Shown: piece after piece, positions 5,571-47,649 of the stretch | Position numbering within the stretch: the first letter of the stretch is position 1 | How the letters are laid out: every line of letters begins with the position of its first letter | Assembly (NCBI GenBank): GCA_963457665.1 | Contig: OY735207.1 | Location: 45,008,679-45,072,678 of the forward strand | Direction of reading: 5' to 3' | From: Thysanoteuthis rhombus | Taxonomy: Eukaryota > Mollusca > Cephalopoda > Oegopsida > Thysanoteuthidae | DNA: 64,000 nt | Position numbers and translations under genes: made by a program | The notes under the pieces: model-generated | The model's input: the letters and a program-made list of their open reading frames with translations, nothing else | Databases searched by the model: none | What the model was told of the DNA's origin: nothing

Positions 5571-6519
5571 TATTAGGTTGATACAAACATTACTGGCAAC
5601 ATCTTTTGCACAATGTTTGGGAAATCTTAAAAGTTTCTTTGATGTTTACTCAGCCCTTTTTTTGCTTGTGCAATCAATCAACTGTAGTATATAGGAAACA
5701 TTTAAAAAGGAAGAAATAGGTTCCACATGAGCTATGGGAATGAGTATTAGTCAGTGTTTTAGTCACTTGTTTTTCTCTGCTAGCTCAACACAGAAGTCAT
5801 ATTTGGACAAGATAGCCACTAGCAATAAAAATAGATTTATTAATAGAATACAGAACAGAAAAACATTTTTACCTAGATTGAATCTATTGGAGGAAAAGTT
5901 CTCTTTGTTTGGTGGGATTTAAAGGGGATTCTTCATTATAAATTGCTGGAAGCTGGACAAATTTTTACTAAGCAATGAATGATGAACTGGAATAAAAAAG
6001 ATCTTTTACTGGGGAAGGAAATTGTAATTATTTCAAATTATTCAAAGTAAACAAAAGGTCAGTATAAAGAAACAAACAAATTTAATGATTAAAAGTAGCA
6101 TTTTTCTTCCTTTTGTAAGAAATTACGGCACCAGATATTAGCTCCAAAATAGACCCAGACTTCCAGCGATTCTCTGGTATAAAAGGACTGTTTCCAACTC
6201 CTTCTTCCTCTCACTCCTTTGGGACACACACTCTGAAAAGGAGTAGACGCCTTTTTAATCCAAAACGTATGTACTATTTGATTTTATTCTGCTATCAAAA
6301 ACATATACGAACTTGTAAAAAGACAATCGATAAACTTACATTCATTTTTACCTTCAGAGACAACACTAAAATATTACTAGGACTTATGTACAAAGACATT
6401 CAACAAAATATGTATTTTCTTGTTTGTTGAAAAATGAACAAGGTTACATTCTTCTTTTATTATAATCCCTCACAGCTGACCACATGAGAACAAAGATTTC
6501 AGTTTATCACATGCTTCAG

Positions 6520-6932
6520 CTTGGTTGTTTTTCATACAACGTTTCAGCCGTTGTACTCTACGGCCTTCATCAGGTATCATCTGGTAGGTGTGGGGAAGTA
6601 ACGAACCGAACCCTTTATTTAACCGACGGGGATATATTGACCACATTCCCCTCTTAGCATTGGTAGTATTAATATTGTCTCATACTGGGATTTAACTTAG
6701 AACCATCAGATTACTTGCAGTAATTTTGTCTGATTCTGGAACCACTATGCTATGTGTCCAATCCCAGTGTGAGACAATAATAATACTACTAATGCTAAGA
6801 GGGGAGTGCGGTCAATATAACCCTGTCGGTTAAATAAAGGGTTCGGTTCGTTACTTTCCCACACCTACCAGATGATACCTGATGAAGGCTGTAGAGTACA
6901 ATGGCCGAAATGTTGTATGAAAAACAACCAAG
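6520..6932. repeat. Large inverted repeat, 173-bp arms
   Basis: The arms 6520-6692 and 6760-6932 are reverse complements at roughly 90 per cent identity with no net length difference, around a 67-bp loop. Each arm carries a CTGATGA ... GAAA block (right arm 6879-6885 and 6907-6910) that resembles a hammerhead-ribozyme core, although a good cleavage triplet and third stem are not evident. The repeat lies inside the mariner copy at 5573-7542. Confidence 0.8.
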
Positions 6933-6962
6933 ATGAGGATAGTCTGAATAATAATAGAAATA

Positions 6963-9253: not shown

Positions 9254-12200
9254 GTGGATTTGCTGTGGCAAGATCATGGGTGTAGTCTTGATAAACCTGT
9301 GCACATCCAGTCAAATGATACTTGTGCAAAGTGGCCACCACTTTGCTTTGCGGTTGAATGTGGACACAGCGATATTGTACAGTATTTAATCAGCAAAGGT
9401 CAGTGATCAACAGAGTTGAATTCCGTCGCTTCATTATTTATGTAACGCCTGATATCATGCGTAGGATTTAATAATTAATACATCAAAACTTTCATTCATT
9501 CTAATGATTATATGTATGATAGGCCATACATTATAAGTGCCCAATGCACCATCTCTTACCAAAATGCTTTTATGGTAGATAACATTATTTCAATCCTTCA
9601 TCTATCTTTAGTGATCAAAATCAAGAGAGTTATTTCACTGGAAATAGGTATTATAGTAATGCACACAAAAAACCCCTCTCAAACGCACCTTATTACTGAG
9701 CGGACAGTCATGTAACCCATTGCAGAGTATAGTATCAGCTAGTACATTTTGTTCAGTCAGTGAGATGATAAGAACGCTGTAAATGCCTGGTGGTCAATGT
9801 CTTGGACAATCAGTGAATAGTAAGTTCCCAATGTACTATTTCTAAGAAGTTGAGAGAGTTGCAATCAAAGATTTCTCTAACTGTTGCTTGCAATATTTTT
9901 GTTATTTTCAGAGCTACAATGCTCATTTTCTGATTCATTGTGAAGCTTGAACTCTCTGCATTATAATTCTGATGCATATTTCTAAAATAAAACTGCATAT
10001 TTTAGCTCTAAAAATTACGGAAACATCGTAAGCAAAAGTTCTTCAAACTTCATTAGTGATTTTCTCAACTTTTTAGAAATGGCTTGTTGTGCACCGATCA
10101 GGCATGGCCTCTCATATACCTCTGCCAATGTCATACACTAAAAACTAAATGAAAATCAATCTATATATAGGGAGATGACTGTGTAAGTTTCGATGTTCCA
10201 TAATTGAACTATTATCTCAAAATATGAATAAATATCTGCATATTGAAAAAAAAATTCCTGGTTCTGTCCCAAAATTTAATCAATTTCCCCTTAGCCCTTA
10301 GCCCTCACTTCCACAAAATGTCATTGAAATTCATTTAGTACTTTTGGAGATATTGTTCAGATAGGCAGATAAACATGAATGAGATACATATATAAATATG
10401 AAAAAAACAAACACCCTGTCAGTTTCGTTGAAATGAATTGCTTGATGAATGATTTGCTACCTGTATCTATTAATATGTGTTCAATATTATTTACTTTTCT
10501 TAGGTTGTAGCACAAAATGTCAGGGCTGGATGTCAAAAAAAGGTGTAAGAGAATATTTCAACCCCCTCTCTTTGGCCTGTAAAGGAAAAAAAATTAACAT
10601 TTTAAACATGTTAGTTGAAGCTGGTTTGTATTATCAATTAAAATTTATTTTCTACTCTCTTAGCTTGATAACTATTCGCCTCAAATTGTTACAGCATTTG
10701 AGGTTAACAAAAAGACAAGCCTATCCTATTTTTTTCTTTTGTTACAACTTTTCTATGCTGTATATTATTAGAAAAAAATTATTTGATATTATTTAAACAA
10801 TAATGGCTTATTATTTATGGGATCAAAATATTGAAGATATTGCATCTTTCATGCATGTTGTCAGTCTTGTACTCATACCTTTGGGAAAGGTATGGGTCAA
10901 ATTATCTCTTGTATGTCTTCTTTGACCAAAATCTTGACACAGGTACACTCCAATAGTAGACAGAAGAAAAAGATGAATGAGTATACGTACTGAATCTATT
11001 CTCCTGTAATTACCTGATCAGGGTTCACAAATTATGGCAGTCATGCTGCTCAACACTTGTAATGGATAAACAAAATTTATCTTTAAGAAATTATATATAT
11101 ATATATATACATACACACACAAGGCCCATTTTGAATATCTCGATAACTGATTGCACGTCCTTGATGTTACTTGGCAAATAATTAGAGAGATGGACACTCT
11201 TCTGTGGGGTTACTCAGTCAGCAGTGAGATGCCATTGTGTACAGTGTGACCGTCAGGAGTTTTTGGCAAAATATTGCATCAGCCAAGTCAGTCAGCTCAG
11301 ACCCAGATTTGCCTCCCTGTGACTGGTTCTTCCCAAAGAGATTTCAGACTGTGGATTTGATTAAGGAGAACCTAAAGAGGCAGTTGATGGCAATCCCAAA
11401 AGAGGACTTTGCAGACTGTTTTGAAAAATGGAGGGGATGCTTGGATAAGTGTGTGAGATCCCATGAGGAATACTTTGAAGAAGACTAAGGTGCCATTGTC
11501 TTAGGTTAGCTATTTCTTTGTTAATATTAAATGGACGGATACATTCTGGACATACCTTTTATTTATTACTGTGACATGGGGTGATAATTACTGCAATATG
11601 TACTTTTTTCTCAACATACAGTACCCATTTCTCAGTGAAAGTAAGGAAGAAAAAAAAGGAAGTTATGTTTGCTGGTCAGTTTACTGCTGCACTCAGTTCT
11701 CTGTTGAGAGTTCATGAAGAATCAAATTTCTCTCCTAGAATTAATTTTCAATTGACTTGATGCTTGTATCTTGTTGAACATGATGCATTGTGCCTTTTTT
11801 GTTCAATCACTAATGCTTTGATGAGGATCTACTTCAAAAGATACCCAAGTGGTTGCTATTCTAGAGCAAAGTATATCAGAAAGATCACAGTCAGTTTTTT
11901 TTCAAAAACTTGTTAGAAATCAATGGACCTGGGAAAACAGTGCAAATCTCCTTGTATTGTATTGCTGCCTTTATGAAATTTATACAACATGCAATGACAA
12001 AAGTATCACCCATTGGTGTCATGAGAACTACACAGAGATATTGGAATGCAATAGAAACAGTTTATGCTCAATTCATAAGCTACCCACTCCCTACAGAAGT
12101 AATGTGTAAGTATTTCTATTATTCAGACTATTCTCATTTTTGTTGTTTTTCATCCTAAATTTTTGAGATGAGGTATTATTATTATTTCTATTATTATTCA

Positions 12201-14167
12201 GACTATCCTCATCTTGGTTGTTTTTCATACTAAATTTTTGAGATGAGGTATTATTATTATTTCTATTATTATTCGGACTATTCTCATCTTGGTTGTTTTT
12301 CATATTAAATTTTTGAGATGAGGTATTATTATTATTTTTATTATTATTCAGACTATCCTCATCTTGGTTGTTTTTCATACTAAATTTTTGAGATGAGGTA
12401 TTATTATTATTTCTATTATTATTCGGACTATTCTCATCTTGGTTGTTTTTCATACTAAATTTTTGAGATGAGGTATTATTATTATTTCTATTATTATTCG
12501 GACTATTCTCATCTTGGTTGTTTTTCATACTAAATTTTTGAGATGAGGTATTATTATTATTTCTATTATTATTCAGACTATCCTCATCTTGGTTGTTTTT
12601 CATACTAAATTTTTGAGATGAGGTATTATTATTATTTCTATTATTATTCGGACTATTCTCATCTTGGTTGTTTTTAGAGAAACACTAATGTGTAAGTACT
12701 TGCATAATACAGTAAACCATCACGATAACAAATTGGGGAGAAGGGAGGGGTGTTCATTAAAGCTGAAAGTTTTTTTATACCTGATGGTTGCCCTTAGTTT
12801 GGTAAATAAGTTTGGTAGTTCATCATATTTAGTGAACATCATTCGGTAAATTCAAAAACAGTTTGGTTGCGCCCCCATTCTTTTTTCAAAGTAGGAAAGT
12901 TTGGGACAATAACATCAAATGGAGGGTCCTCACCAGTTGTCATATAGTATATTGTTTATCTTTAGAGATTTGCGTCTTAAAAAAAAAAAAATAAATGTAT
13001 GTGTAGTTTTAATTCAGTCAAAATTCGATTTAATCTAAACAAGGATGTCAATGAAAGTCTACTGATCCGAGATAAGGGGTGAAAGTTAGTTTATCATGTA
13101 AATTATAGCTGCAAAAATTATTTGACCAAATATTTGGACATTTCAACACAAATATATGACTTTTCAATAGCTTTTAACCAACTCATTTGTTCTAGTATTC
13201 AATTGTTTTAGGATCACTCAAAATAAGTAAATAAGTAGCACTTTTTTTCCCTTTATTACTGACTAGTCTAATGCATTCCAAATACCAATGTAATTTGAAT
13301 TGAATAAAAACTCAGATTTTTATTCTGTGGTTGTTTCATTACAAATTCATTCTTTTAAATGTTTGTGTCAGAAAATAAAAAAATCCTTATGGCCAGTTAT
13401 ACTGCTCCTTCTTTCAGTTTTGCTTTTAAAATGTTCAATTATTAATCACAAATTTATACAATATCATTATTGCTTCAATTTCAGGTGTTGATGTGAACAG
13501 TCAACTGCCTGGGGATCAGATTGAAGAAGAGGAAGGAGGGAGCATCGACTATAAAGATGTTCGAAACACTTGTCTACATTGGGCAGTCCAATATGGTCAG
13601 GTTGAAGTTGTAAGGGCTCTTCTACAAAATGGTGCTAACCCCAACATTCTAAATGGTTTCATGGAGACCCCACTGCATGTAGCTTGTGACTACTACAATC
13701 CTTTAATTATTAAAGACCTAATTCTCTATGGTGCAATATCAAACAATACAAATCATGCTGGCATAACCCCTCTTGGTATGCTCATTTCATATGAATCAGG
13801 TTCTGATCTTGTTGAGTATAAAAACAGCATAAGGCTCCTCGTGAGAGCAGGCTATGATATGCAACACGATCTTTGCTGGCAAAAAATGCTCTTTGAAGAT
13901 TGTTCCGGTAGTCAACTTTTAAAAACGTTCCCTGATCAACATTTCATCCATACACTCAAATACATCACACACAATCCTAAAAAGCTGTCACACATTTGTC
14001 GTCTGCAAATAAGGATAACGTTCCACTATGAAGCAGCTGCTTTACAATCTCTTCCCATCTCAAAAGCAATGAAAGAATTCCTTTTCCTGCCGAACTGTTG
14101 CCTTGAATTATCAGATGTTGTTGTTGCAGAAACAGCACCAAAAGAAATGAAAACATCTAATTCTTGA
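9254..14167 (+). CDS. Ankyrin-repeat and SOCS-box protein (ASB-like), 5' partial
   Basis: Three exons join in frame: 9254-9398, 10504-10623 and 13485-14167, giving 315 codons and a stop. Each junction is a canonical AG acceptor / GT donor with matching phase 1. The first exon has an ankyrin-like PPLCFAVECGHSDIVQYLISKG and the second FNPLSLACKGKKINILNMLV. The third has clear ankyrin repeats (TCLHWAVQYGQVEVVRALLQ, then TPLHVACDYYN). The last 60 or so residues contain LSHICRLQIRITFHYEAAAL and LPISKAMKEFLFLP, the pattern of a SOCS box. ASB proteins use ankyrin repeats to bind substrates and the SOCS box to recruit elongin B/C and cullin-5 as a ubiquitin ligase. No start codon was found, so at least one 5' exon is missing or beyond the window. 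The particular ASB orthologue was not resolved. The two introns contain a mariner fragment and a tandem array. Confidence 0.8.
10090..10410 (-). repeat. Inverted copy of the ~130-bp dispersed repeat family
   Basis: On the minus strand this reads like the repeats at 15.1-15.8 and 43.6-44.1 kb (attgattaaattttggg, aatgaatttcaatgac, agatat before the next unit). It sits in the first intron of the SOCS-box gene. Confidence 0.4.
11237..11488 (+). mobile_element. Mariner-type transposase, C-terminal fragment
   Basis: The reading frame ends in PDLPPCDWFFPKRFQTVDLI and later AIPKEDFADCFEKW and EEYFEED, followed by a stop. This matches the C-terminus of mariner transposases (PxLAPCDFFLFPxLK ... AIPxxxFxxCFExW ... 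GxYFEGD). Only the C-terminal third remains, with no visible terminal repeats. It is an intronic DNA-transposon relic, different in sequence from the mariner at 5.6-7.5 kb. Confidence 0.75.
12113..12685. repeat. 75-bp tandem repeat array, about 7.6 copies
   Basis: A unit starting catactaaatttttgagatg recurs exactly every 75 bp (12151, 12226, 12301, 12376, 12451, 12526, 12601), with few differences. On the minus strand it is open in frame, giving a 25-residue Asn-rich repeat, but there is no sign that this is translated. The unit matches the stretch at about 6917-6990 in opposite orientation. The array is flanked by a 13-bp direct repeat, TAATGTGTAAGTA, at 12100-12112 and 12686-12698, which looks like a target-site duplication. 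Confidence 0.95.
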
Positions 14168-17471: not shown

Positions 17472-42421
<24,950 letters not shown>

Positions 42422-44065: not shown

Positions 44066-45781
44066 ATTGGAAGGAACATACATTCAGTCATCCATTTTGA
44101 ATTTCAAAATGGGTGCACTCAAAGTTTGTAGAAAAACTGGCAACAATTTTTCTTCTTAATTTGGATGGTTTTTAGATATGATTCGATTGGGTTGCCAAGA
44201 TTCTATTCCCCTAAAAATTATAAGTTCTACTTGGACAGATTGGTGACACTTTTACTTCTCTTCAGAATCTCAGCCATTTCAGTTGCTCCTGCATTAATAT
44301 TAGGAAAATATCCTACTGTGTCACTTCCAGGCCTTTACGAACAGTAATATGAAATTTCCAATGAATTAAAATGAGGCACAGAGAGATTGAGAGATGCAGA
44401 AATAGCAACAAAATGAACATAGTACTGATATTTAGTACTAACAAAATCAAGTCTTAATCTGGCAACCATATTCAATTTTTCAGGATATCATTTATACACA
44501 GGAAGTAATCGTCTCAATTGCATAAAAATTCTTTTATCTCATTCACTGAACAGAAAAATGTGGGTATAGGCACTAGAATCATCACAATAGATAAATCAGT
44601 TAGTGAGATATTGCCAACATAAGATTTCATAGTAGTCATCTTCAAAATATTGAGCAAAAATGTGAAAAGCTGCCACACTGATAATGCTATCATGCTATAC
44701 TTTTCCTAGCTCTACAGTAATAAACCTAACAAAAAGTCATAGAGAGAATTTGCCCTTAATTTGGTCCCCAAATACACTATAATATTCAAGTAGTGAATCA
44801 CCCATGGTAATACAGACCAGTAGTTCTTTTTCAGCTCCTCTTATATAGAAATCATATCAAAGTGACTTACATAACCAAGCTGGTGCAAATGATTTTCAGG
44901 GCTTGACTAGGATATTTTGAATAAGTTGGGCTACTTTCTGTAGTGGATAATATTGATTATTCTCAAGCTATATCTTCATTTGATTGTTATCAAATGGTGT
45001 AACTAATTGTGGTGCATTGTTTAGCAATAAATCTCCTCCATGAAACTTCACAAATCACTTCTGATATGTTTGATCATTCACAGAACCTTTTCAATAAAGT
45101 GTACAATCCTTTTTTTTGTATTCTAAACACAATTTTACTTTTTACTTTATACAAGGAAGAAAAAAAATAGGCAATGATTGACGGCTGTCACAATAATATC
45201 AAAAGTGATAATTTTGAATGTATAGTAGTTCCTTGAATTTTGTGAGGTGTCAGGGTGCTGACGCAATGTGAAATTGATATTTGATGAATATCCTCTGACC
45301 TCAACCTCGTGGAAAAAAATAAAATTGAAAAAATTGAGTGCTTCGATATGTTAAAAACATACAAGTTTTTGGAACTGCTGACAGAAAAAAAGTGAGTGAT
45401 ATCTCTCAAGAGTTTCCACAACTTGTAAATCAAAATTAAAAATTAAGATCTTTTTGGGCTACTTTGTATTCAACTTCTGTTATTGCTCATGCTAATTTTC
45501 AGATCCTCTCCAGTAGATGATCTAGATCTTGCTATTTTTTGTGCATTAACCCTTCAAGTCTGTATCTAGCCCTTAGTTCCTTTCCAATTTATCGAACTGT
45601 ATTACTCTTATTTACAAAGCGATATATTTTGCCACATAAAAATTTTTTTGTGTGATTCACAAACCCAGGCATTTTCATCAAAATATGTTACTTTTTCACA
45701 GTAATCTGTAAGAGTTGCTTCCCTTGGAAAGAAAAAACAAAACATACTGCAAACAATCAAGTCCACAAAATGGGGACAGAC

Positions 45782-46130
45782 ATCCACTCTTTCTCTGGCC
45801 TTTCCTTCGGGATCAATGTGTAGTATCTGTTCCACGGCAGCGCCCGAGGCGCAGGTACGGACACTTGCCCGTCGAATGGGTCAGAGATTGTGTGCTGGTT
45901 GACATCAAAGACCGAGTGCGCCGGTGCAAGCATTAGCCAATGAGGTTTTACTAAGGCTGCGCTTTGCTACTCGTCCTTCGGCACTCCTATTATTACTCGG
46001 CCCAGCTGCGGGGGGTTGGTTTCCCCGGAGGAGCACTGCTCCATTGCACTTGAAGGTGCAGGTCCCCTGGTTCCAAAGTAAACCGTAGCCGCGTCAGCTG
46101 GAGCCATTTTTGGAAGGGTTGATCCTATTT
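45782..46130 (+). ncRNA. Mosaic of snRNA-like segments (U2, U4, U6, U1)
   Basis: Segments of one GC-rich block on one strand resemble different spliceosomal RNAs. U2 5' end: 45793-45832, with exact GTGTAGTATCTGTTC (45818-45832) including the branch-site-pairing GTAGTA. U4 5' domain: 45917-45969, with exact AGCCAATGAGGTTT (45935-45948). U6 5' end: 45970-46000, CTCG-CTTCGGCA. U1 stem-loop II: 46017-46073, with exact TCCATTGCACT (46040-46050), the U1A-binding loop. An ATTTTTGGA Sm-like site is at 46106-46114. The piece at 45888-45912 (GACATCAA) is weakly U11-like. It could be a chimeric retroposon (snRNA-headed SINEs exist in crocodilians), an snRNA pseudogene cluster, or a transcribed chimera. 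Resemblance is by recall of human snRNAs, not alignment. Confidence 0.55.
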
Positions 46131-46465
46131 TCCCCACGTTAAGCCCGACCTTGTGTCAAATTCCGCTGTGGTGGGACACTGATTAAATAGATACTCAAGT
46201 TAAAAGTAAATGCTCCAAATGCCATCCAATGACAAACACAATCAATTTTTCTATCAACCCAATACAAATTACTCGAGATAAAAATAGGACAACTAAGGAT
46301 AGAAGCTGTCAATTGAATTCATGGACCAAAATTTCTAAATAGAAATTATTGTGATAAAAAATGCATTTTATAATTTATGTTAACATTGTAACTATGCAAG
46401 TTGGATGGAAAGGAAATTGAATGATCATGCTGATCATTACTTTGGAAGAAAATTTTTTCTTCATA

Positions 46466-46470
<5 letters not shown>

Positions 46471-46524
<54 letters not shown>
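46471..46524. repeat. (TA)n microsatellite
   Basis: Pure TA array of about 27 units. Confidence 0.95.
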
Positions 46525-46527
<3 letters not shown>

Positions 46528-47649
46528 CCATTGTCTTTTGCTTTGTAATACATGACATGCTATATTTCTGGTAATACATAGGAGTGCAGACCTGATAATT
46601 TTGCATACACAACTCGCAATCAGACATTCTTATAAAAAATTCAAAAACATATTGCAATTATATAAATATCTTCTTTTCAAGTTTTAATTTTGGAAAATAC
46701 CATCAAGTTATTCATTCGAATGAAAAGAAAAAAAAAAATTACTTTTGCATACTTGAAAAAGATTTTAGGTTCTTTTCAATGTTGATTAATCAAAAATTAA
46801 CTTTATTATCTGATTGACTTCTGCCAACAGAAAAATTTCTACTCTAAATATCTTCTCAAACTAAAGTAATTGTTACATCAAAAAAGGAATTAACAAAAAT
46901 TTTTTGATTTGATGATTACTTGACTGGATTTCGAGAAACATATTACTAACTTTTTTCAAAATGTAGTGAAAGAAATTGTATTTTCTGGCATATAATCTGC
47001 ACTGGTAAAAATTCAAGTCCAAAGTACGCCAGTATTGTTATATAACCAGCATCCTAAAAAATTTTTCCCTTAATTGTTTATATTGTTAGATCACGTTCAT
47101 TTTGGGACCCATCTTCACAAATCAGTGATGAATATATATGTGCAACCAAAGCAAATACAAATCTTGAATGAAAAATCACATCACATTTAATTGAATCAGC
47201 ATGTCTAAGCACTGACAAAAAAATGTTGCCTCAACGAAACGAATATCAGTAGTCAAGCTAAAAAGAAAGTCTGCAACTTCAATCGATCATTTACTTTAGT
47301 AGTCTACCAATGTGTTAGAGTATGGTAAGGTAATCCTATGTTATATTGCCATTCTCACCTATTTGCCATGTTATAATCATTATTACGGCTGTGTGTTGAA
47401 GAGGAAATGTATACATCCAAACCCAGCTTAAAAACACTGCGTGTGTAACCCACAGGTTATATACACTGGAAAATATGGTATATATGTTCAGTGTGCTTCG
47501 TCTGTATATCAAGAGATAGTAGGCAACCATTATGTGGAGTCAGTTCTAAAGTGTGTATTGAGTCAGCTTTCCTTACCTATGTGATGAGAGCCCATTTAAA
47601 CGGAAGACAACAATGTTGACCAACATGCATGAATTTCAACTTTTCATTT

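Follow-up and report, generated by a model that had tools for sequence, protein, structure and literature searches.

SINEs that begin with a spliceosomal snRNA are said to have been described in crocodilians by Kojima in 2015. These SINEU elements reportedly occur as several families per genome with a preference for a site in another repeat, and are said to be mobilised by Tx1-Mar into Mariner-N4. Squids and cuttlefish also carry SINEs of their own, the Ceph-SINEs, which have a conserved central domain and a tRNA-derived head. Two papers cite U1- and U2-headed SINEU elements of crocodilians (PMC8010984, PMC7245038), and a 2026 paper gives tRNA, 7SL, 5S, 28S and U1/U2 snRNA as sources of SINEs (PMC13174262). 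This last paper also describes chimeric snRNA/LINE-1 insertions, including U2 and U4, formed by template switching or ligation. Other mobile elements target snRNA genes: the LINEs Keno and Utopia target U2 genes at nt 38/39, with downstream U2 resuming from nt 39 (PMC4640811), and Dada DNA transposons target U6 and U1 genes (PMC3706591). Among the best-ranked literature matches listed (for example the best 20 of 838), no U4-containing SINE is described in titles or abstract openings.

We analysed a window (the whole stretch of DNA presented here, 64,000 nucleotides) from the cephalopod Thysanoteuthis rhombus, in which the original prediction had seen a block built from four spliceosomal RNAs. 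This block is one worn, old copy of a high-copy SINE family, which we call family A. The best-supported classification is an snRNA-headed SINE of the SINEU kind in a mollusc, with a combination of U2 and U4 that is new to the literature searched. Like crocodilian SINEU elements, family A has an snRNA-derived 5' head (U2 nt 6-46). It differs from them in its mollusc host, in the addition of a U4 5' domain and a U1-like hairpin, and in its recurrent target, a presumably RTE-like LINE frame; it is of the same kind, but does not belong to the crocodilian families. The snRNA/LINE-1 chimeras likewise join snRNA to retrotransposon sequence, but they are single bipartite insertions, whereas family A is amplified and carries two snRNA domains. 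Keno and Utopia also connect retroelements with U2 genes; however, the family-A head reaches U2 nt 46 and lies inside a SINE, and we did not adopt their insertion as the origin of the U2 heads because their site is at nt 38/39. Ceph-SINEs and family A are both SINEs of cephalopods and, compared by description, differ in their heads (tRNA vs U2). No link between Dada transposons and family A was found.

Family A in the window and in the genome

The block is indeed one element, although the actual unit is longer than the one originally delimited, running from 45791 to 46193. A family-A profile of 461 positions, built from 34 copies including the window copy, has its sole match in the window here (nhmmer, model 2-461 to window 45791-46192, E 5.6e-130). 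Of the aligned bases, 372/403 are identical to the consensus of the same 34 copies. The features of the window copy are:

45791..46193, plus strand: SINE family A copy, with two larger internal deletions (nhmmer and alignment)
45793..45832, plus strand: U2-derived head, host U2 nt 6-46 (shuffles, host-gene comparison and alignment)
45917..45968, plus strand: U4-derived segment, U4 nt 6-60, 5' domain (shuffles and U4 model matches)
45936..45957, plus strand: U4 5' stem-loop kink-turn motif, GCC-AAU-GA-GG...CU-GA-GGC in the consensus (sequence)
46036..46061, plus strand: hairpin with an AUUGCAC loop, resembling U1 stem-loop II (the U1A site)
46105..46113, plus strand: putative Sm-like site, CATTTTTGG (sequence)
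46130..46193, plus strand: 3' tail in common with SINE family B, ending in TTAAATAGAT (family-B model and tail alignment); the family-A tail sequence reads GACCTTGTGTCAAAT...TAAATAGAT

The three exact words behind the original prediction are all present, each once on the plus strand of the window: GTGTAGTATCTGTTC at 45818-45832, AGCCAATGAGGTTT at 45935-45948 and TCCATTGCACT at 46040-46050. The Sm-like site it proposed was also found, in the region where the family-A consensus and host U2 have the 10-nt word ATTTTTGGAA in common. In the head, the consensus and host U2 have 22 identical nucleotides in common (GATCAAAGTGTAGTATCTGTTC), one of which is changed in the window copy. Its kink-turn has AA in place of the second GA, and its AUUGCAC hairpin has one mismatch in the stem. 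As described, the block is GC-rich within AT-rich DNA, with a GC content of 0.49-0.56 (200-bp steps, 45700-46199) against 0.29-0.35 upstream (44700-45799) and 0.21-0.31 downstream (46200-47199). It has no stop-to-stop frame of at least 120 aa. ARAGORN found no tRNA gene in the window, and no promoter was identified in the block, including internal RNA polymerase III boxes inspected by eye.

Elsewhere, the window contains an inverted repeat (6516-6936; 177-nt arms, 93% complementary, 67 nt apart) and a 75-bp tandem array (12042-12750) whose minus strand reads through as an N-rich frame of 197 aa. By eye, a 269-aa frame (21902-22711) looks like the terminal part of a Penelope-like element and includes a GIY-YIG-like stretch.

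Copies in the animal's own genome, which the original prediction had proposed looking for, are abundant and dispersed. In the 2.73 Gb searched, the U2 15-mer occurs exactly 3,917 times (vs 5 for the reversed control), and a 22-mer consensus word from the U4 part (AGCCAATGAGGTTTTACTGAGG) occurs exactly 994 times (vs 0), with no exact copy of the latter in viral contigs. This genome also has 52 matches to PF14830, a haemocyanin domain of molluscs, against none in 14 control genomes, and one of its haemocyanin exons aligns with mollusc haemocyanins of solved structure, best with 6r83, from squid (best stretch 536 bits), ahead of 3j32, from abalone (350), and 8trz (330). A DNA search with the block gave 4,876 first-look candidates; in the 40 of these that were scored, 41 of 51 match rows span at least positions 48-413 of the 441-nt query. 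The profile gave 239 matches over the fetched loci, or 235 after removal of L009, which is the window itself, and of the duplicate L034. These correspond to 201 distinct copies, of which 76 are at least 90% complete, and tandem copies are frequent among the fetched loci. At non-CpG positions, 77 copies differ from the majority sequence by a median of 11.6% (range 7.2-25.1%, the DNA-search loci having been selected by likeness to the window copy), indicating that the copies are not very young. Family A is thus short, dispersed, high in copy number and without a reading frame, as SINEs are.

Ancestry of the U2 and U4 parts

The family-A consensus aligns to host U2 with a score of 44 and to host U4 with a score of 35, and neither score was reached in 1000 dinucleotide shuffles. 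Their reverse complements lie at background (404/1000 shuffles for U2, 587/1000 for U4). Under two further scorings, shuffles reached the host U2 score in 12/1000 and 0/1000 cases, the host U4 score in 4/1000 and 1/1000, and the score of human U4 in 0/1000 both times. In the element, the head (U2 nt 6-46) is followed by about 85 nt of other sequence and then by U4 nt 6-60. The U4 match is collinear over 55 nt, with TGCGC, 12 identical nucleotides, GAGGC and TTGCTA in that order. Human U4 fits family A better than host U4 does, suggesting capture from an older U4, which must be assumed.

Covariance models were less favourable to the single copy. Nothing in the 64 kb reaches the Rfam gathering thresholds, an outcome that the original prediction had named as speaking against it. 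At permissive settings, correctly placed matches to U2 and U4 (14.7 and 12.9 bits; E 1.9 and 2.4) appear among others at chance level; measured against a threshold of 46 bits, these fall short of full-length, functional snRNA genes. Rfam misleads here because the window copy is degraded, and for U2 and U4 the family and the host genes overrule the single-copy result. We ran cmscan on 18 loci, 16 of them with family A, 15 of these 16 covering the U4 part. In 7 family-A loci it reported U4 at the place of the U4 segment, with 16.7-23.3 bits (E 0.16-8.9) against a gathering score of 46, and each match begins between model positions 112 and 122. Five of the 16 gave U2 matches, six in total and all weak, close to the 5' end of the element. 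None of the scanned family-A copies reaches the gathering score.

The 5' segment of U4 holds a kink-turn bound by Snu13/15.5K. In family A, the kink-turn shape alone is reached by 112/5000 shuffles, and its pairs show no covariation among the copies; the case for U4 is therefore one of sequence similarity and not of kink-turn shape. Of the three cores whose joint occurrence the original prediction put beyond chance, those of U2 and U4 do exceed chance; the U1 word, as sequence, does not.

The AUUGCAC hairpin and the extent of the chimera

As plain sequence homology, we rejected a U1 part, keeping it only as a look-alike hairpin. The score of host U1 against the consensus is reached by 94/1000 shuffles, and in two further scorings by 325/1000 and 353/1000; a second host U1 gave 149/1000 and 518/1000. 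Human U1 scores 27, reached by 1/300 shuffles, with 132/1000 and 15/1000 in further scorings. The U1 covariance model has no match at E<=10 in the window or the family loci. The hairpin itself is unusual: an AUUGCAC loop closed by a C-G pair has a stem of at least 7 bp in 0/5000 shuffles, and of at least 4 bp in 1/5000. Across 58 aligned copies, 93.8% of 369 cells are paired. Of these cells, 19 are changed on both sides and still paired, against a shuffled mean of 5.0 (0/500 as high) and 1-9 in slid controls. There is no excess of doubly changed pairs (2) or of additional pair types (7), for which 458/500 and 498/500 shuffles are as high; the compensated changes sit at two pairs and may reflect few events. 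In a wider set, the alternative pair occurs in 21/87 and 10/88 copies. RNAalifold was uninformative, predicting 12 pairs for the 58 copies at -4.1 kcal/mol, the AUUGCAC hairpin not among them. Taken as a whole, the consensus has a more stable fold than its shuffles (z -2.7, 2/200 as low), while the U4 part (z -1.7) and the hairpin (z -1.6) folded alone are each matched by 14/200 shuffles.

The proposed U6-like 5' end did not survive, as 113/300 shuffles reach its score (389/1000 and 108/1000 with human U6) and the U6 covariance model has no match at E<=10 in the window or the family loci. Of the four spliceosomal RNAs originally proposed, U2 and U4 are thus upheld and U6 is discarded, while for U1 the support extends no further than a structured hairpin of similar appearance.

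How much of the element descends from snRNA can be read in several ways. Family A is very probably a LINE-dependent SINE family whose 5' half consists of fused snRNA 5' domains, a U2 head and then a U4 segment. A full triple chimera, with the hairpin as a true fragment of U1 stem-loop II, would account for the rarity of such long AUUGCAC stems in shuffles, for the 19 doubly changed cells that still pair and for the human U1 score of 27. It fits poorly with host U1 sequences that shuffles match easily, with the further human U1 scorings, with the silent U1 model and with counts of doubly changed pairs and pair types no higher than in shuffles, and we hold it only tentatively, as somewhat doubtful. 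The opposite extreme is a U2-headed SINE whose resemblance to U4 and U1 arose by convergence, a structured central domain having formed a kink-turn and an AUUGCAC hairpin by chance. Such convergence could draw on a kink-turn shape that is not rare and lacks covariation, on U4 matches that all stay below the Rfam gathering score and on the insignificance of host U1 as sequence; against it stands the collinear 55-nt U4 match, with at most 4 in 1000 shuffles reaching the host U4 score under any of three scorings and none reaching that of human U4 under two. We consider it quite improbable.

The host has many snRNA genes of its own, some of them in arrays (at least 46 U2, 42 U4 and 42 U1 matches), which might point to a cluster of dead snRNA pseudogenes or to the rearrangement of an snRNA gene locus. 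This is refuted by the dispersed family, since many scattered copies, part of them with target-site duplications, repeat the same order of U2, spacer, U4, spacer, hairpin and tail, and its probability is close to nil. The U2 genes form a large tandem array at C36:371045-601796 (unit about 1.95-2.1 kb), and the U4 genes another at C35:43592388-43710911 (unit about 2.1 kb). The fused-domain SINE remains our preferred reading, and the suggestion of a new chimeric retroposon family holds for U2 and U4: family A is dispersed, has duplicated target sites and carries both snRNA parts in sense orientation and in order.

Retroposition, related repeats and significance

Among 73 copies with both ends, 20 have flanks that share an identical stretch of 9 nt or longer, compared with 2.5% of 730 mispaired flanks; the other 53 have no flank repeat of that length. 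Inspected by eye, 11 of these flank repeats look clean, such as those of 17 nt in L016 and 15 nt in L021; the remaining 9 are CA-rich or the leaders of tandem copies. Target-site duplications of 10-17 nt thus mark some family-A copies, and like other SINEs the family has them, though the window copy shows no clear one of its own.

In 6 of 74 full copies, the same LINE site forms the 3' flank. We take the reading frame of this abundant target LINE to be RTE-like, and the genome contains 2,713 occurrences of a 31-mer from the site. As one of the six (L073) belongs to a distant subfamily, family A probably inserted there on more than one occasion. The remaining five are close to one another, their nearest relatives including copies elsewhere, and in these the LINE may have been copied together with its SINE. 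A target-like leader precedes the U2 head in 11/74 copies, some of them at the target itself, a weak hint that transcripts can start upstream of the head.

The tail connects family A with a second U2-bearing repeat, family B: the family-B model matches the window at 46106-46182 (E 1.3e-5), and the tails of the two consensuses align with a score of 41. No partner LINE bearing the tail was found among tail-only matches in the fetched loci, which are SINE pieces, family-B tails or matches of unclear kind. We envisage that a LINE reverse transcriptase recognising this tail could have joined U2 and U4 fragments by template switching; alternatively, ligated snRNA could have been reverse transcribed. 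The fused element would then have spread by target-primed reverse transcription, with the LINE acting through the tail.

To place family A among other U2-bearing sequences, we read 94 places of the U2 15-mer on contig C1 (at least 5 listed places were left out, and L008 was dropped as it overlaps L057). Of these, 50 belong to family A and 21 to family B, 11 match the U2 stretch only, and 12 match neither. Family B (L070, L075, L076 and L080) carries U2 nt 1-54 at about 85-96% identity in arrays with units of about 409 bp, and in two loci 5 of 7 of its U2 matches exceed the Rfam gathering score (cmscan). By reading of the sequence, L070 has family B antisense inside the tail of a family-A copy, and the target recurs between the units. 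In L005, L057 and L066, elements of about 440-630 bp have U2-like inverted termini and are perhaps foldback or DNA-transposon-like; L002, L060, L117 and L127 start similarly. In a further repeat (L067, L112, L113 and L134), a GTACACTCTTTGGTAGTTTTGC-like body comes after the U2 15-mer, and L059 and L131 are other U2-headed sequences, the latter with a family-B-like tail. Given family B and these further U2-bearing repeats, retroelements seem to have captured U2 5' ends repeatedly. A 5S rRNA-like stretch on the minus strand of L062 (823-923; 34.5 bits vs a gathering score of 38) is possibly another small-RNA-derived repeat.

Speculatively, the SINE RNA could act as an snRNP mimic, with a U2 branch-site domain, a U4 kink-turn, a U1A/SNF hairpin and an Sm site on one transcript. 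Spliceosomal proteins would then be recruited for stability, nuclear return or access to the machinery of the partner LINE, a scenario we regard as unlikely. The RNA may also serve as a putative splicing decoy.

The U4 domain, and the presence of two snRNAs in one SINE, extend the list of SINE sources. Copies of this sort can also swell the number of snRNA genes counted in such genomes, as those of family B score above the Rfam threshold for U2. If the retained protein-binding motifs are used, family A would allow the recruitment of snRNP proteins by SINEs to be tested directly.
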